Assembly (NCBI GenBank): GCA_019218415.1
Contig: JAHUUL010000001.1
Coordinates: forward strand, 62,001-126,000
Source: Dermabacteraceae bacterium TAE3-ERU27
GTDB lineage: Bacteria; Actinomycetota; Actinomycetes; Actinomycetales; Dermabacteraceae
DNA length: 64,000 nt
Direction of reading: 5' to 3'
Shown here: positions 58,086 to 64,000 of the stretch, in pieces
Layout: each line of letters starts with the position of its first letter
How positions within the stretch are numbered: position 1 is the stretch's first letter
Notes under the pieces: model-generated
What the model was told of the DNA's origin: nothing
What the model saw: the letters and a program-made list of their open reading frames with translations, nothing else
Databases searched by the model: none
Made by a program: the position numbers and the translations under genes

Positions 58086-60362
58086 TTAGAGGTACTTGCT
58101 CTTCTTGCCCCAGATCACCGCGAGCTCGTCGCGCGCGCGGGACGCCGCCACATAAAGCAGCGAACGCTCCCGTAGTTCCGCCTCGCGCCGCGCTTCGTCA
58201 TCGTAATCGACGCCGCGCGGCATCGAGATCTCGCCAACCTCGAACAGCAGCACCCGGGAAAACTCGATTCCCTTGGAACGGTGCATCGACATCACCACCG
58301 GCACACCGGCACGCACCGGGTTGCGGTCAACCACCTGTATGGCCACGCCGCACTCGCTCAGTGCCGACGCGATCCTGTCTCGCACCCGCACGTTCGGCGC
58401 GAGGATACCGATGTTTTCCAGGCCGACGTTGCCCCTGCCTAAGCCTCCGTTAGCGCTCTCTTTGATGTCGTTTACCCAGCCACGGATCGTTTTTGCCGCG
58501 CAGCTGATTCGCTCCTGTGAGGAGTCGCTGTGGAACGTGAACGGGGCGGCCCCGCTGCGCACCGACCGGTAGCGTTCTTCTCCCGGCCGCCCCGTGCCGA
58601 CGCTTCCACCGGTACCCGGTTCACCCGCAGCGCCCGGCCCGTCAGCCCCCGCAGCAGGAACTTCTGCCCCGGCACCTTCGCTCCCCGCCTCGCCGTCCTC
58701 CAGCGGTGCGGCGTAGTCGCCGCCGTCCAGAATCCGCATCGCGTATTCCAGGTTTTCGGCGGTGGTGCGGTAGTTCAGCGTGAGGCGGCGCGAGCGTCCG
58801 CGCACTTCGATCCCGTAGTGTTTCAGCACGATCCGTTCGCCGTAAATACGCTGGTGATCGTCTTGCGCGATGAAGATGTCGTTCGGCCCCGGCGCTACCA
58901 GTTCCCGCATCATCTGCCAGTGGCCCGGCTGTAGGTCCTGGGCTTCGTCTATCAGCACGTGGTCGGCCTGCCGCCGCCCGCCGTCCTGTTCGGCACCTAT
59001 TTTTAGGGCGCGGGCGGCCAGGAACGGCACTTCGGAGAAGCTGTAGGTTTCTTCGTTGGCGGCAGCCAGCCGGTAGGTTTCGATCACGCGCCAGACGGCG
59101 GCGCGCGTTATTCGCCCCAGTTTGCTGCCGCGCCCGATCCGCCTAGCCCGCAGGTATTCCCGCTGTTGCAGGATGTTTTGCGGCAGGATCACGCGCGAAT
59201 ATTCGGATTCAAAGAAGAAGCGGCTGGCCAGGTTCTCGGGCAGGCCGTAGCCGCTACTTTTAATCGCACCGGGCCAGGCGTAGCTGTCTTTGGTGATCCC
59301 TACCCTGGTGAGTGCCGACACGTGGCGGCCCAGCACTTCCTGCACCGCGCGCGGCGCGTGCTCGTTTCCGGTGAGGGCTTCGTTCGCCAGTTGGTCGGCT
59401 CCGCACACGTAGATGCCCGCCTCGCCCAGCCTTTCGGCGATTTTTACCTGCGGGTCGAGCTGGCGTACCTGCTGCGTGAGCGAATCCGCCAGGTTGCGGG
59501 TGAATGTGGTGAGTACGATCCGCGCCTGCGGGTTTACCCGCGCCAGCCGTACCGCGCGGTGCACCAGGATGATGCTTTTGCCGGTGCCCGCTCCGCCGGT
59601 CAGGCGGTAGGGGCCGTTCGTATCCTGTTTTACGTATTTACGCTGGTCAGGGTGCAGGAAGATGCGCCAGCTGGCGAAGTCTCCTTCGTCGATGGCGCGG
59701 GCCAGTTCTTCGTTTTTGTTGCTCAGGAAGTAGCGGCTGGCCGACTTTTCGCTGCACATTCCGCGCACCAAGTGTTCGTCGCCCTCGGGTTCGATCCGAT
59801 AGGTTTCGATGGTTTCCGCGAGGCTGCGCCCGCCCGCCAGGGTGGTGAGCGCTTCCAGCTGCCAGGCTGGCGCGCCCTGCGCGGCGGATACGAGTTCGGG
59901 CAGGCTGCGCACGGTCACGGCTGCGCGCGCGAGCGGTTCGTCAATGCCGAGCTGTCCAGTCAGTTCCGCCACGCTGGCGGTAATCAGCGGCTGGCCCGCG
60001 TTTTCTTCCGGTGCGGCGGGAGCTTCGGCGAGCGCACGCGGTTCCCCTTCGCGCACCTCGATCTGCCCGGTGACGGGGTTGGTGTCGATTTGCAGGGCAG
60101 CGGCGATTTTCGCCGCGCTGGCGGTTTCGCACACGCGGTGCAGGTAGTAGAACCTGTCGGGCACGAGTTCCACCATGATCGCGCTGTACGTGTCGTCGAT
60201 CCGGGTGGCACGCACCCGGTCGTCTAGCGCGCCGGGCACGGACTCGAGGGTTACTTTGCCCACGCGCAGTCTGGTGGTGTGGGCGATGGTGGCGTCCCTG
60301 GCCGCGAGCGGGACTTCGTATCCCTTTTGCAGGGCTATCGTGACCTGGTTTGCCTGGTTCAT
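58086..60362 (-). CDS. Superfamily 1 (UvrD/Rep-like) helicase with an N-terminal extension
   Basis: A 758-residue cytoplasmic protein. Residues ~1-230 are an extension without a known domain. The motor core follows: motif I TGGAGTGKSIILVHRAV near residue 265, motif II VLIDEAQDLQPGHWQMM, motif III IFIAQDDHQRIYGER, motif IV LTLNYRTTAENLEYAM, and C-terminal motifs VVMSMHRSKGIEFSRVL and LLYVAASRARDELAV. These define a UvrD-like 3'-5' DNA helicase. A low-complexity Gly/Pro/Ala insert lies near residues 565-605. Its ATG overlaps the stop of the giant helicase gene (ATGA), so the two are coupled. No exonuclease domain is evident. The pairing suggests repair or anti-phage defence. Confidence 0.85.
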   Translation of the reverse strand: MNQANQVTIALQKGYEVPLAARDATIAHTTRLRVGKVTLESVPGALDDRVRATRIDDTYSAIMVELVPDRFYYLHRVCETASAAKIAAALQIDTNPVTGQIEVREGEPRALAEAPAAPEENAGQPLITASVAELTGQLGIDEPLARAAVTVRSLPELVSAAQGAPAWQLEALTTLAGGRSLAETIETYRIEPEGDEHLVRGMCSEKSASRYFLSNKNEELARAIDEGDFASWRIFLHPDQRKYVKQDTNGPYRLTGGAGTGKSIILVHRAVRLARVNPQARIVLTTFTRNLADSLTQQVRQLDPQVKIAERLGEAGIYVCGADQLANEALTGNEHAPRAVQEVLGRHVSALTRVGITKDSYAWPGAIKSSGYGLPENLASRFFFESEYSRVILPQNILQQREYLRARRIGRGSKLGRITRAAVWRVIETYRLAAANEETYSFSEVPFLAARALKIGAEQDGGRRQADHVLIDEAQDLQPGHWQMMRELVAPGPNDIFIAQDDHQRIYGERIVLKHYGIEVRGRSRRLTLNYRTTAENLEYAMRILDGGDYAAPLEDGEAGSEGAGAEVPAAGADGPGAAGEPGTGGSVGTGRPGEERYRSVRSGAAPFTFHSDSSQERISCAAKTIRGWVNDIKESANGGLGRGNVGLENIGILAPNVRVRDRIASALSECGVAIQVVDRNPVRAGVPVVMSMHRSKGIEFSRVLLFEVGEISMPRGVDYDDEARREAELRERSLLYVAASRARDELAVIWGKKSKYL

Positions 60363-63300
60363 CGCCGTTCCTCGCTGCCTGTATGACGTGCGATTTCAGC
60401 GTACACAGCGGGGCCGGTTGCCGTGTAAACCTGCCAGCCTTCGCCGTTTAGGGCGTCGACCACTTCCTGGTCTTCCTCCACCAGTAGCGCCAGGTGGTGT
60501 TCGGGCCAGGTGAAATCGACCGGGTAGCCGGCCACTTCTTCGTCCATGACGGGCTTGGGTAGCCCTGCACTATAGATGGCCGACAGTTCCGCTAGGCATT
60601 CCAGCTCTTGCGCGATGGTTTGGAGGTTGGCCCAGTCTGCGGGTAGGTCCAACCTGGTGCCGCCCGCAGCGGCAGGTTCTGTGGTGCCCTCGGCTGGTTC
60701 TGGGCCGGTGGATTCTTCCGACGGCGCGGCTTCCTCCGCAGCGTGGGTTCCGGCGCGCACACCCGCCCCGGCCTGCACACCGCCCCCAACACCGGCACCG
60801 GCTTCCGCGCGGGTGGCGCTGGCGTTGAAGTTTTCCACCCCCAGCCCCTGTAGCAGGTTAGCTAGGTGCAGCCATTCGCCCCAGTAGCTGCGGAAGTCGG
60901 AATGGTAGGCGCCGTTACCGTCCAGGATCAGGTAGGCGGCGTATTCTCCCGTACCGCTGCCGATACCCGCTCCCGGGGCGTCTGCCGTCCTGTTAATGTA
61001 GCGCGCGGTGAACGGCCCGCTCTGCACCAGGGCAGTGTTGCTCTTCTCTGTATCGGCCCCTGGGCTCGTCTGTCTCTTGGCGTTCGCGCACAGCAGCAGG
61101 AAGCAGGTGTTTGCCAGGATCTTCAGCATGGGCTGTAGTTCTCTGCCCGGCCCCTGGCTGTCACGGCCGGAGCTTACCCAGCCCAGGATCGCCACGAGCA
61201 GGTTGATGGCGCTGCCTGTGAGCAGGGCTTCGGCTTCTTCCCTGGTAAACGCGCCGTTGGTGAGAACGGGGATGCTTCCCCCGATCGCGCCCAGCGTCGC
61301 ACCCAGCCCGGAGTTGTCCCCGCGCCAGTCGGGCGATACCCGCTGCCCGTTCAGCAGAGCATTGTTTTCGGCAGCGGTTTTTTGCCAGGCGGCTATGTCT
61401 CCGTGGGTGATAGCCAGCACCAGGTAGCCGTTTTCGCGCAGCACGGCGCGTTTTTCGGCGTCGTCCGCAGCCCGGTCGTTGGTTACGGTGGCGTGGTACT
61501 GGTAACCGTCGGTGTAGATCGCGATCCCGGCCAGGTTTTCGCGGACCGTGCTGCCCTGCCAGCGCAGCAGGAAGTCGGGCCGGGTGCCGTGGAGGTCGAT
61601 CTGTTCTTCGAGGGTGAAGTGCACACCGCAGATGTTGGCGCTGATGGTTTCGCCGCGTTGTCCGGTTTCGCTGCGCACCTTCCCCGCGGCCTGCCGGGTG
61701 AAGATATTCCGCATGAGTTCGCGGAACTGGATTTCCAGGGCGCTACCGCTGGTGTTGCGGCTTACCTGTTCGCTCAGTTCCCATTCGCCTTCGCCCAGGA
61801 TTTCTTGGAGCAGGGTTGCGGCCATCTGTCGGTTCAGCAGTTTGGCGTCGCTGCCCGCGCCGTATGCCTGTAGGCAGCGGTGGCAGGATTGCAGCTGTTC
61901 TCCCTGGCAGGGGCAGTTTTCTAGGGTTTCTAGGGCCGACGTCATGACGTGCCGCAGCGTTTCCGGTTCAGCTAGGTCTACCAGGTAGCCGGTGCCGCCA
62001 GGCACCGCGTCGTAGAGCAGCAGGGCTTTCGCGTCGGGTTTGATCGGGTCGTGGTTGCTGACGAACCTGATGTGGCCGGGAGCGCCGCCGAAGTGTTCGC
62101 GCAGCCCTAGTTCCAGCGCGGCCCGCAGGCTGGGCATGGCTTCTTTTTGGCTGCGGGCGCTGACGGCGCTGGGAAGCGAGATCAGCAGGATGTCGGTTTC
62201 GATGGTGCGGCTGATTACCACGTCCAGTTTGTCTACCTGTGCCGAGTTGCGGTGGGGGCAGAAAACCTGGTGTTCGCGGCGCATGTTTTTGTTGTTGTGC
62301 GCGTCCAGGTGGCCGCATTTGGGGCAGATCTTGAATCCCGGTACGGGGCGTTCTTCGCCGTTCAGGGTGACCTTGCGACTGGTGGGTTCGCCGTCCCTGC
62401 CCAGGTTGAATTCGCTGAGCGGGTGGTTGCGGTGCAGCATTACGGCAAGCTGGTTTCCCTGGCTTTCCCAGATGCGGGCCGCTTTATCCGCCTCTAGGTG
62501 CACGGTGTGGGCGGTGGTGAAATGTACCCGTTCGCGGTTGTCGGTGGCATCGTTGATGCGTGAATCGTAGCGTTGCGCGTTCGCGTATACCTGCCGCATT
62601 TCCACGGTTTCAAGCTGCTGGCCCGGGTCTTTCACTCCCCTATCGCCGCAGCCGCCGCAGGGCGGCATGGGGGCGTCGCGGCTGGTTGCCAAGTTCACGT
62701 AACCGCATTTGGCGCAGATCGCGATTTTCTTGAGGCGGGACGATTGGCTGCCGAGGTCTATCGAATCGATCTGCACGTGGGTGCCGTGGGCGTAGAAGTG
62801 TGCGCCGGGCGCTAGTTCGGTGATGGCGCTGGCCACGCCGCGTTCGTAGCGTTCCTCTAGCTGGCACCATTCCTGTTCGTGGTCGCGCCAGTTGAGGGTG
62901 ACCACCACTTCGGCGGTGTCGTCCACCAGCGTGAAGTTGGGCAGCAGGCCGTAGCGTTCCAGGGAACCGATCCAGTGCTGGTTGTCTATCTCGCTGAGTT
63001 CCTGGCGGGTGCGTACCTTGCTGGAGATGAGGCTGCGTTTTTCGCCTTCCTCGTGTTCGCGCTGGCGCTTTTGGAGGATTTTTTCTTCCTCGCCCAGCAG
63101 GTGCAGATCGTCTTTTAGCTGCTCTTTTTCTTCTCTGAGCGGCGTAAATTGGTTGTTTTCCAGCCGCTGGATCTGTTCCTGGATGTCTTTCAACCTGCGG
63201 CTTAGCGCTTCGCTTTCCTCTTTCCACGCCTGTGCGGCGCGGGAGATTTTTTCTGCCACGCCCCGGTTCTTCGCCCAGGTGCGCAGGTTAGTGGCGCTTT

Positions 63301-64000
63301 CTGCCGACAGGTGCGCGCCGAAGCTGGCTATGAAGTCTTCGCAGGCGTCTTCGCGTTCCGCTTCGGTTTTCAGTAGCCCAAGCAGGGTTTGCTGGCCGGT
63401 ATCGGCCAGCACGTCTTGGGCGGTGCGGGGTTCACGGTGTAGCTGACGCGCTACATCGCCGCGCGCGGCGATCTGATCCAGCAGGTAGGCGATGTATTGG
63501 CGTTTTAGCAGTTCGTCGGCGCGCAGGTAGGTGGCGGGGGCGCGCACTTCGCCGTCCAGCACCGTTTCGGGGTTTTTCAGGATCCCCAGGGTGGTGCGGG
63601 TGGAGGGCGCGAGCACCAGGTTCAGGGCGTTGCCGGTGAGCCTGCCCGCGCGGCCTACGCGCTGTAGGTAGCTGGCCACGCTGGGCGGGAAGGAGCCGAG
63701 GATGACGTGCGATAGGTCCCCGATGTCGATACCCATTTCGAGGGTGGGGGTGGCCACCAGCACGTTGGGGCTGCCGGGGGTTTCGCTGCCTTTCTTGAAT
63801 CCTTCCTCATACGCCAGGCGGTCCGTGGCGTCCAGCAGGGAGGAGTGTTCGCGGGCCACCAGGCGGTGCATGTCAGATGCGCCGTAGAGCCTGCGGTAGA
63901 AGTTTTCCGCCGCGAAGTGGGCGCGTAGGTTGCCGGGGCAGTTTTGGGTGAGGCATTTCGCGCCAACCAGGGCGCTGCCGCTGGTGCGCAGGCTATGGCA
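60359..64000 (-). CDS. Giant SF2 DEAD/DEAH-type helicase with DUF1998 and nuclease-like domains (5' end outside the window)
   Basis: The visible 1213 residues are open to the right edge; the N-terminal RecA domain lies outside. The visible start holds the second helicase domain: VLVATPTLEMGIDIGDLSHV (motif V) and YLQRVGRAGRLTG (motif VI). A coiled coil follows at ~290-360, then paired-cysteine zinc sites (ICAKCGYVNL; CGGCGDRG; ICPKCGHLD; CPHRNS). A DUF1998/MZB-type domain with CPCQGEQLQSCHRCLQAYG comes next, then a PD-(D/E)XK/Vsr-like segment (GTRPDFLLRW and IAIYTDGYQYHA), and a second nuclease-like stretch near the end (AGYPVDFTWPEHHLALLVEE). DUF1998 helicases occur in DISARM, Druantia and MrfA repair systems. 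It overlaps the SF1 helicase gene. Confidence 0.85.
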   Translation of the reverse strand, partial: CHSLRTSGSALVGAKCLTQNCPGNLRAHFAAENFYRRLYGASDMHRLVAREHSSLLDATDRLAYEEGFKKGSETPGSPNVLVATPTLEMGIDIGDLSHVILGSFPPSVASYLQRVGRAGRLTGNALNLVLAPSTRTTLGILKNPETVLDGEVRAPATYLRADELLKRQYIAYLLDQIAARGDVARQLHREPRTAQDVLADTGQQTLLGLLKTEAEREDACEDFIASFGAHLSAESATNLRTWAKNRGVAEKISRAAQAWKEESEALSRRLKDIQEQIQRLENNQFTPLREEKEQLKDDLHLLGEEEKILQKRQREHEEGEKRSLISSKVRTRQELSEIDNQHWIGSLERYGLLPNFTLVDDTAEVVVTLNWRDHEQEWCQLEERYERGVASAITELAPGAHFYAHGTHVQIDSIDLGSQSSRLKKIAICAKCGYVNLATSRDAPMPPCGGCGDRGVKDPGQQLETVEMRQVYANAQRYDSRINDATDNRERVHFTTAHTVHLEADKAARIWESQGNQLAVMLHRNHPLSEFNLGRDGEPTSRKVTLNGEERPVPGFKICPKCGHLDAHNNKNMRREHQVFCPHRNSAQVDKLDVVISRTIETDILLISLPSAVSARSQKEAMPSLRAALELGLREHFGGAPGHIRFVSNHDPIKPDAKALLLYDAVPGGTGYLVDLAEPETLRHVMTSALETLENCPCQGEQLQSCHRCLQAYGAGSDAKLLNRQMAATLLQEILGEGEWELSEQVSRNTSGSALEIQFRELMRNIFTRQAAGKVRSETGQRGETISANICGVHFTLEEQIDLHGTRPDFLLRWQGSTVRENLAGIAIYTDGYQYHATVTNDRAADDAEKRAVLRENGYLVLAITHGDIAAWQKTAAENNALLNGQRVSPDWRGDNSGLGATLGAIGGSIPVLTNGAFTREEAEALLTGSAINLLVAILGWVSSGRDSQGPGRELQPMLKILANTCFLLLCANAKRQTSPGADTEKSNTALVQSGPFTARYINRTADAPGAGIGSGTGEYAAYLILDGNGAYHSDFRSYWGEWLHLANLLQGLGVENFNASATRAEAGAGVGGGVQAGAGVRAGTHAAEEAAPSEESTGPEPAEGTTEPAAAGGTRLDLPADWANLQTIAQELECLAELSAIYSAGLPKPVMDEEVAGYPVDFTWPEHHLALLVEEDQEVVDALNGEGWQVYTATGPAVYAEIARHTGSEERR

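Follow-up and report, generated by a model that had tools for sequence, protein, structure and literature searches.

ARMADA type II was defined, in a preprint that deals with helicases of the YprA family (Bell et al. 2025; PMC12458937), as an anti-phage system encoded in the order ArmA-ArmB-ArmC-ArmD. ArmA is BrxHII/RapA-like, ArmB is PglX-like, ArmC is YprA-like with a Vsr nuclease, and ArmD is GajB-like with a RelE-like N-terminus (PMC12458937). In E. coli, represented in the preprint by strains NCTC 12900 and ATCC 8739, ARMADA II protects against phages directly and non-abortively, and all four genes are required (PMC12458937). DruE of Druantia type III, a related helicase-nuclease, has a PLD-like nuclease (PMC12458937) and loads on replication intermediates at 3' single strands (PMC13192584).

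An ARMADA type II operon at the end of the window

The window covers 64,000 nt of a 2.0 Mb genome (contig C1:62001-126000); DNA to the right of position 64000 was read from the same genome. Two minus-strand ORFs lie at the window end, one of 758 aa and one, open at the end, of at least 1213 aa (Table 1), and they share the four bases ATGA. Pfam separates the two proteins as the earlier note had described them, with UvrD N- and C-terminal domains on the 758-aa protein and Helicase_C plus MZB (PF09369, MrfA Zn-binding) on the giant one, the MZB match being taken to be the DUF1998 region of that note. The giant gene indeed runs off the window and continues to approximately 67077 in window numbering (L002:4360-11078, L002 being the 20 kb that hold the operon), its frame broken once shortly outside the window. 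A methylase had been expected further right, and a methyltransferase gene, armB (L002 11029-16127), was found upstream of armC on the same strand, followed upstream by an SNF2 helicase gene, armA (L002 16142-19069). By profiles, ArmB is a PglX-like/type IIG-like methyltransferase and ArmA a BrxHII/DrmD-like SNF2 helicase; the profile names along the operon read UvrD/GajB-like, MZB/DruE-like, type IIG/DrmMI-like and DrmD/BrxHII-like. No tRNA occurs in the 20 kb, and directly downstream of armD a scan of 1.3 kb showed no terminator-like site above chance.

Table 1. Features of the armC-armD region in window numbering
Feature	Position	Strand	Evidence
armD: GajB/UvrD-like SF1 helicase with RelE-like N-terminus, 758 aa	58086..60362	-	ORF, profiles, alignment, fold search
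RelE/ParE-like domain of ArmD, residues ~5-105	60048..60350	-	alignment, model, weak profile matches
ATGA overlap, armC stop / armD start	60359..60362	-	ORFs; same overlap in other loci
armC 3' part: YprA-family SF2 helicase-nuclease	60359..64000	-	ORF, profiles, alignment
Helicase_C (RecA2) match of ArmC	63638..63841	-	Pfam
MZB / MrfA Zn-binding (DUF1998) domain of ArmC	61871..62125	-	Pfam
Vsr/MTES_1575-like PD-(D/E)XK nuclease domain of ArmC	61361..61753	-	alignment of 40, model, family matches
Second, truncated nuclease-like segment of ArmC	60371..60640	-	alignment, model

An E. coli locus with the reference ArmC of the preprint (WP_000937974.1) and its neighbours was used for comparison. 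The order BrxHII-like, PglX-like, YprA-like, GajB-like on one strand recurs here gene for gene, and pairwise alignment gave identities to the E. coli type II proteins of 36% for ArmA, 36% for ArmB, 32% for ArmC and 33% for ArmD. Protection in E. coli was lowered or lost on mutation of eight residues (ArmA K136/D236, ArmB G605/N971, ArmC K110/D234 and ArmD K266/D454; PMC12458937), and all of these were aligned to the same residue here. The positions in ArmA, ArmB and ArmC were read from the sibling genome G001, in which ArmB and ArmC are open; the window's own ArmD has the Walker A K262 and the Walker B D472. ArmC scored 613 bits against E. coli ArmC, 122 bits in its best segment against DruE of E. 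coli Druantia III and 47 bits against the housekeeping MZB helicase of its own genome, pairwise scores that point to the ARMADA branch of the YprA family and not to Druantia or housekeeping helicases.

PADLOC profiles assigned the same families to this operon and to the E. coli reference. The release used (2023 library) labels ArmA as DrmD and ArmB as type IIG restriction-modification (L002:11029-19069, L058), ArmC as DruE and ArmD as GajB, and would thus probably mis-file loci of ARMADA II.

The pair very probably represents armC and armD, which close an ARMADA type II operon armA-armB-armC-armD. Likeness to the described system covers the four genes in the same order, the protein families and all the tested catalytic residues, and extends to a RelE-like ArmD N-terminus, a Vsr-like ArmC nuclease followed by a probably inactive segment, and the armC/armD ATGA overlap. 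The locus differs in its identity of just ~32-36%, in the degenerate RelE-like residues of this lineage, in the broken ArmB and ArmC frames of this assembly, and in having no Druantia or Zorya beside the operon among the genes examined. It is another actinobacterial instance of a system described in 2025 and, as such, mostly already explained; the recently described defence system is now extended to another actinobacterial genus. The earlier note had suspected a defence system and had not recognised the pairing: the suspicion fits ARMADA type II, and the pairing matches one known since 2025, that of ArmC and ArmD. Gene content and order, the eight catalytic residues, one apparently intact nuclease site and a patchy distribution together suggest that this operon would act in anti-phage defence.

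One of the two nuclease-like segments of ArmC has a complete site

Forty ArmC C-termini were aligned, with residues numbered in the 493-aa C-terminal piece. In the first nuclease segment E36, D89, D111, H116, D127, R131 and D148 are invariant in 40/40, and the predicted structure has the helix-strands-helix-strand core of PD-(D/E)XK enzymes (pLDDT 78.5 on average and greater than 85 across most of the domain). Family searches matched the MTES_1575 restriction endonuclease in 18 of the 40 C-termini and Vsr in one. No match came from searching solved structures with a profile of the nuclease piece, and a Foldseek search of the domain against the PDB returned nothing significant, with TnsA first (E 0.1) and the Vsr-like homing endonuclease I-Bth0305I at E 0.52. 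The invariant residues and the modelled core argue for an intact Vsr-like PD-(D/E)XK site that is predicted to be active.

In the second segment just one acidic residue, E435, is invariant and the E/D/D/H set is gone. Lacking the full site, this segment is probably inactive; inactive nuclease-like domains after the Vsr-like nuclease have also been reported for type II ArmC (PMC12458937). Both of the nuclease-like segments noticed earlier thus exist, but only the first has a full catalytic site.

The RelE-like N-terminus of ArmD appears degenerate in this lineage

The ~230-residue N-terminus of the SF1 helicase, which the earlier note had regarded as novel, is real, but a RelE-like domain at this place has already been described (PMC12458937). 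It consists of a RelE/ParE-like fold and a helical linker. The N-terminus is homologous to that of E. coli ArmD, and AlphaFold2 modelled residues 8-105 as strand-helix-helix-strands, with low confidence (53-62) across residues 1-40 and values exceeding 80 between 41 and 100. Among relatives, the domain matched ParE-like and Gp49 families weakly, in 5 of 25 members each (best E 0.0014). A profile of the domain run against solved structures yielded top matches that look unrelated and are probably due to chance, with YoeB at E 0.57. The fold search with ArmD saw the helicase part alone, its list filled by UvrD entries and other helicases; the RelE assignment therefore draws on homology, predicted topology and the weak profile matches, which together favour a RelE-like N-terminal domain in ArmD.

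Across 48 aligned proteins R54 is invariant, R60 is present in 47 and H80 and D81 are present in 45. The last three are candidate active residues with a putative catalytic role. The window's ArmD has S, T and A in place of R60, H80 and D81, as does that of the sibling G001, and we read the RelE-like domain as degenerate in this lineage. Such natural loss of RelE-like residues in one lineage offers a ready test of whether the domain's catalysis matters for ARMADA.

Frame breaks in ArmB and ArmC

At the DNA level the sibling G001 is ~98% identical to this genome over ArmC-ArmD and 95% over ArmA-ArmB. ArmB and ArmC are open in the sibling; in this genome the frame of each is broken once. A programmed frameshift, considered for either gene, was rejected because the sibling is open at both places. 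The breaks are possibly sequence or assembly errors or real decay and, if real, would inactivate the system. The operon could then be a decaying, inactive ARMADA II remnant in which the ArmB and ArmC frames are lost, the RelE-like domain is degenerate and defence is gone, as would agree with the one break in each gene relative to an open sibling, with the absence of R60 and H80-D81 from ArmD of both genomes, and with another family member, G006, that holds fragments only. Against this, two further window genes have broken frames when compared with the sibling, at ~16208 (16.2 kb) and ~48170 (48.17 kb), one of them with a gluQ-like part. This rate suggests sequence or assembly errors and makes assembly error a fair explanation for the ArmB and ArmC breaks as well. 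ArmA and ArmD are moreover fully open, and the operon keeps 95-98% DNA identity to the sibling. We consider the decayed state unlikely, though it is the most serious of the alternatives to the preferred reading of an ARMADA type II defence operon.

Other known systems and distribution among relatives

Membership of DISARM or Druantia proper, to which the matches of ArmA to DrmD profiles and of ArmC to DruE profiles might point, is highly improbable. The profiled genes of the operon include no DrmA-type helicase split from DrmB, no PLD nuclease DrmC and no DruH, all NCBIfam DISARM scores fall far below the cut-off, and the ArmC of this operon resembles its E. coli counterpart much more closely than it does E. 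coli DruE. DISARM is refuted by gene content (neither the DrmA/DrmB split nor DrmC), as is Druantia (neither DruH nor other Druantia partners). What the operon shares with class 1 DISARM is a DrmD-like SNF2 helicase and a DrmMI/PglX-like methyltransferase. Like DruE of Druantia type III (PMC13192584), ArmC is a YprA-family SF2 helicase with MZB and a C-terminal nuclease; unlike DruE, it is found without DruH, it has a Vsr-like rather than PLD-like nuclease, and the similarity between the two is weak. Gabija GajB resembles ArmD in the UvrD-like SF1 helicase core, whereas no GajA occurs here and ArmD has the RelE-like N-terminal fusion instead.

Searching 98 relatives, the own genome included, gave a strong ArmD match in 13, and in 9 of the 47 of the same family; such a patchy distribution fits defence and not housekeeping. 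Most carriers hold ArmA-B-C-D together, as does a Streptomyces plasmid. Viral contigs yielded one clear relative only (L139). In G006 only adjoining fragments of ArmB and ArmD are left (L051:15203-16422), a decayed ARMADA II remnant. In relative G003 the gene order is C-D-A-B (L049:3724-15844 with L182), a departure from the strict order stated for ARMADA type II in PMC12458937. A Pseudomonadales MAG (L098:992-16461) has the order C-D-A with no recognisable ArmB; next after ArmA comes a 510-aa ORF that matched no Pfam family.

General DNA repair by a helicase and its partner, after the fashion of the housekeeping pair MrfAB, could explain the MrfA Zn-binding domain on ArmC and the UvrD-like protein beside it, UvrD-like proteins being repair enzymes, but is highly improbable: the earlier note had asked whether the pair is present in nearly all relatives at the same locus, and it is found in just the 13 carriers, plus the one decayed remnant; a separate, shorter MZB helicase lies elsewhere in the genome; and at the operon, in place of an adjacent or fused MrfB-like 3'-5' exonuclease without defence neighbours, a methyltransferase and an SNF2 helicase adjoin. 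Housekeeping repair was ruled out on the distribution and the separate MZB helicase.

A possible mode of action

The steps of a scheme drawn by analogy with E. coli ARMADA and with DruE of Druantia III have about an even chance of being right. In the ARMADA type II operon, the SNF2 translocase ArmA and the PglX-like methyltransferase ArmB would discriminate self from non-self on incoming DNA. Given the action of DruE on replication intermediates, ArmC may act similarly, loading where single strands are exposed in phage replication intermediates, unwinding them and cutting through its Vsr-like domain, while ArmD would clear or process the ends. Translational coupling would probably produce ArmD at a fixed ratio to ArmC. 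E. coli ARMADA II shares the four-base armC-armD overlap (ATGA), and so do several other loci; the coupling thus recurs.

RelE-UvrD fusions in DISARM-like operons

Among the best 80 ArmD relatives in the genome collection, 26 have no adjacent ArmC, and ~10 of these 26 have DrmA, DrmB or DrmC homologs upstream. RelE-UvrD proteins in DISARM-like operons are absent from the text of PMC12458937, and no paper on them turned up in a literature search. The clearest operons, in Thermobifida (L094:1597-14295) and Nocardiopsis (L119:271-14296), read DrmA-DrmB-DrmC-kinase-[RelE-UvrD]-GmrSD, the last being a GmrSD-like protein, and one in Antrihabitans (L126:3288-14254) has the same DISARM-like order minus the kinase. 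We tentatively propose, with somewhat less than even confidence, that the RelE-UvrD fusion is an interchangeable effector module of different YprA-based systems, ARMADA II and DISARM-like ones, with a RelE-like domain that may serve a structural role or be dispensable, given that the window's lineage has lost near-invariant residues of that domain with the helicase intact. Two further actinobacterial DISARM-like operons (L103 and L118) carry the RelE-UvrD fusion without ArmC.
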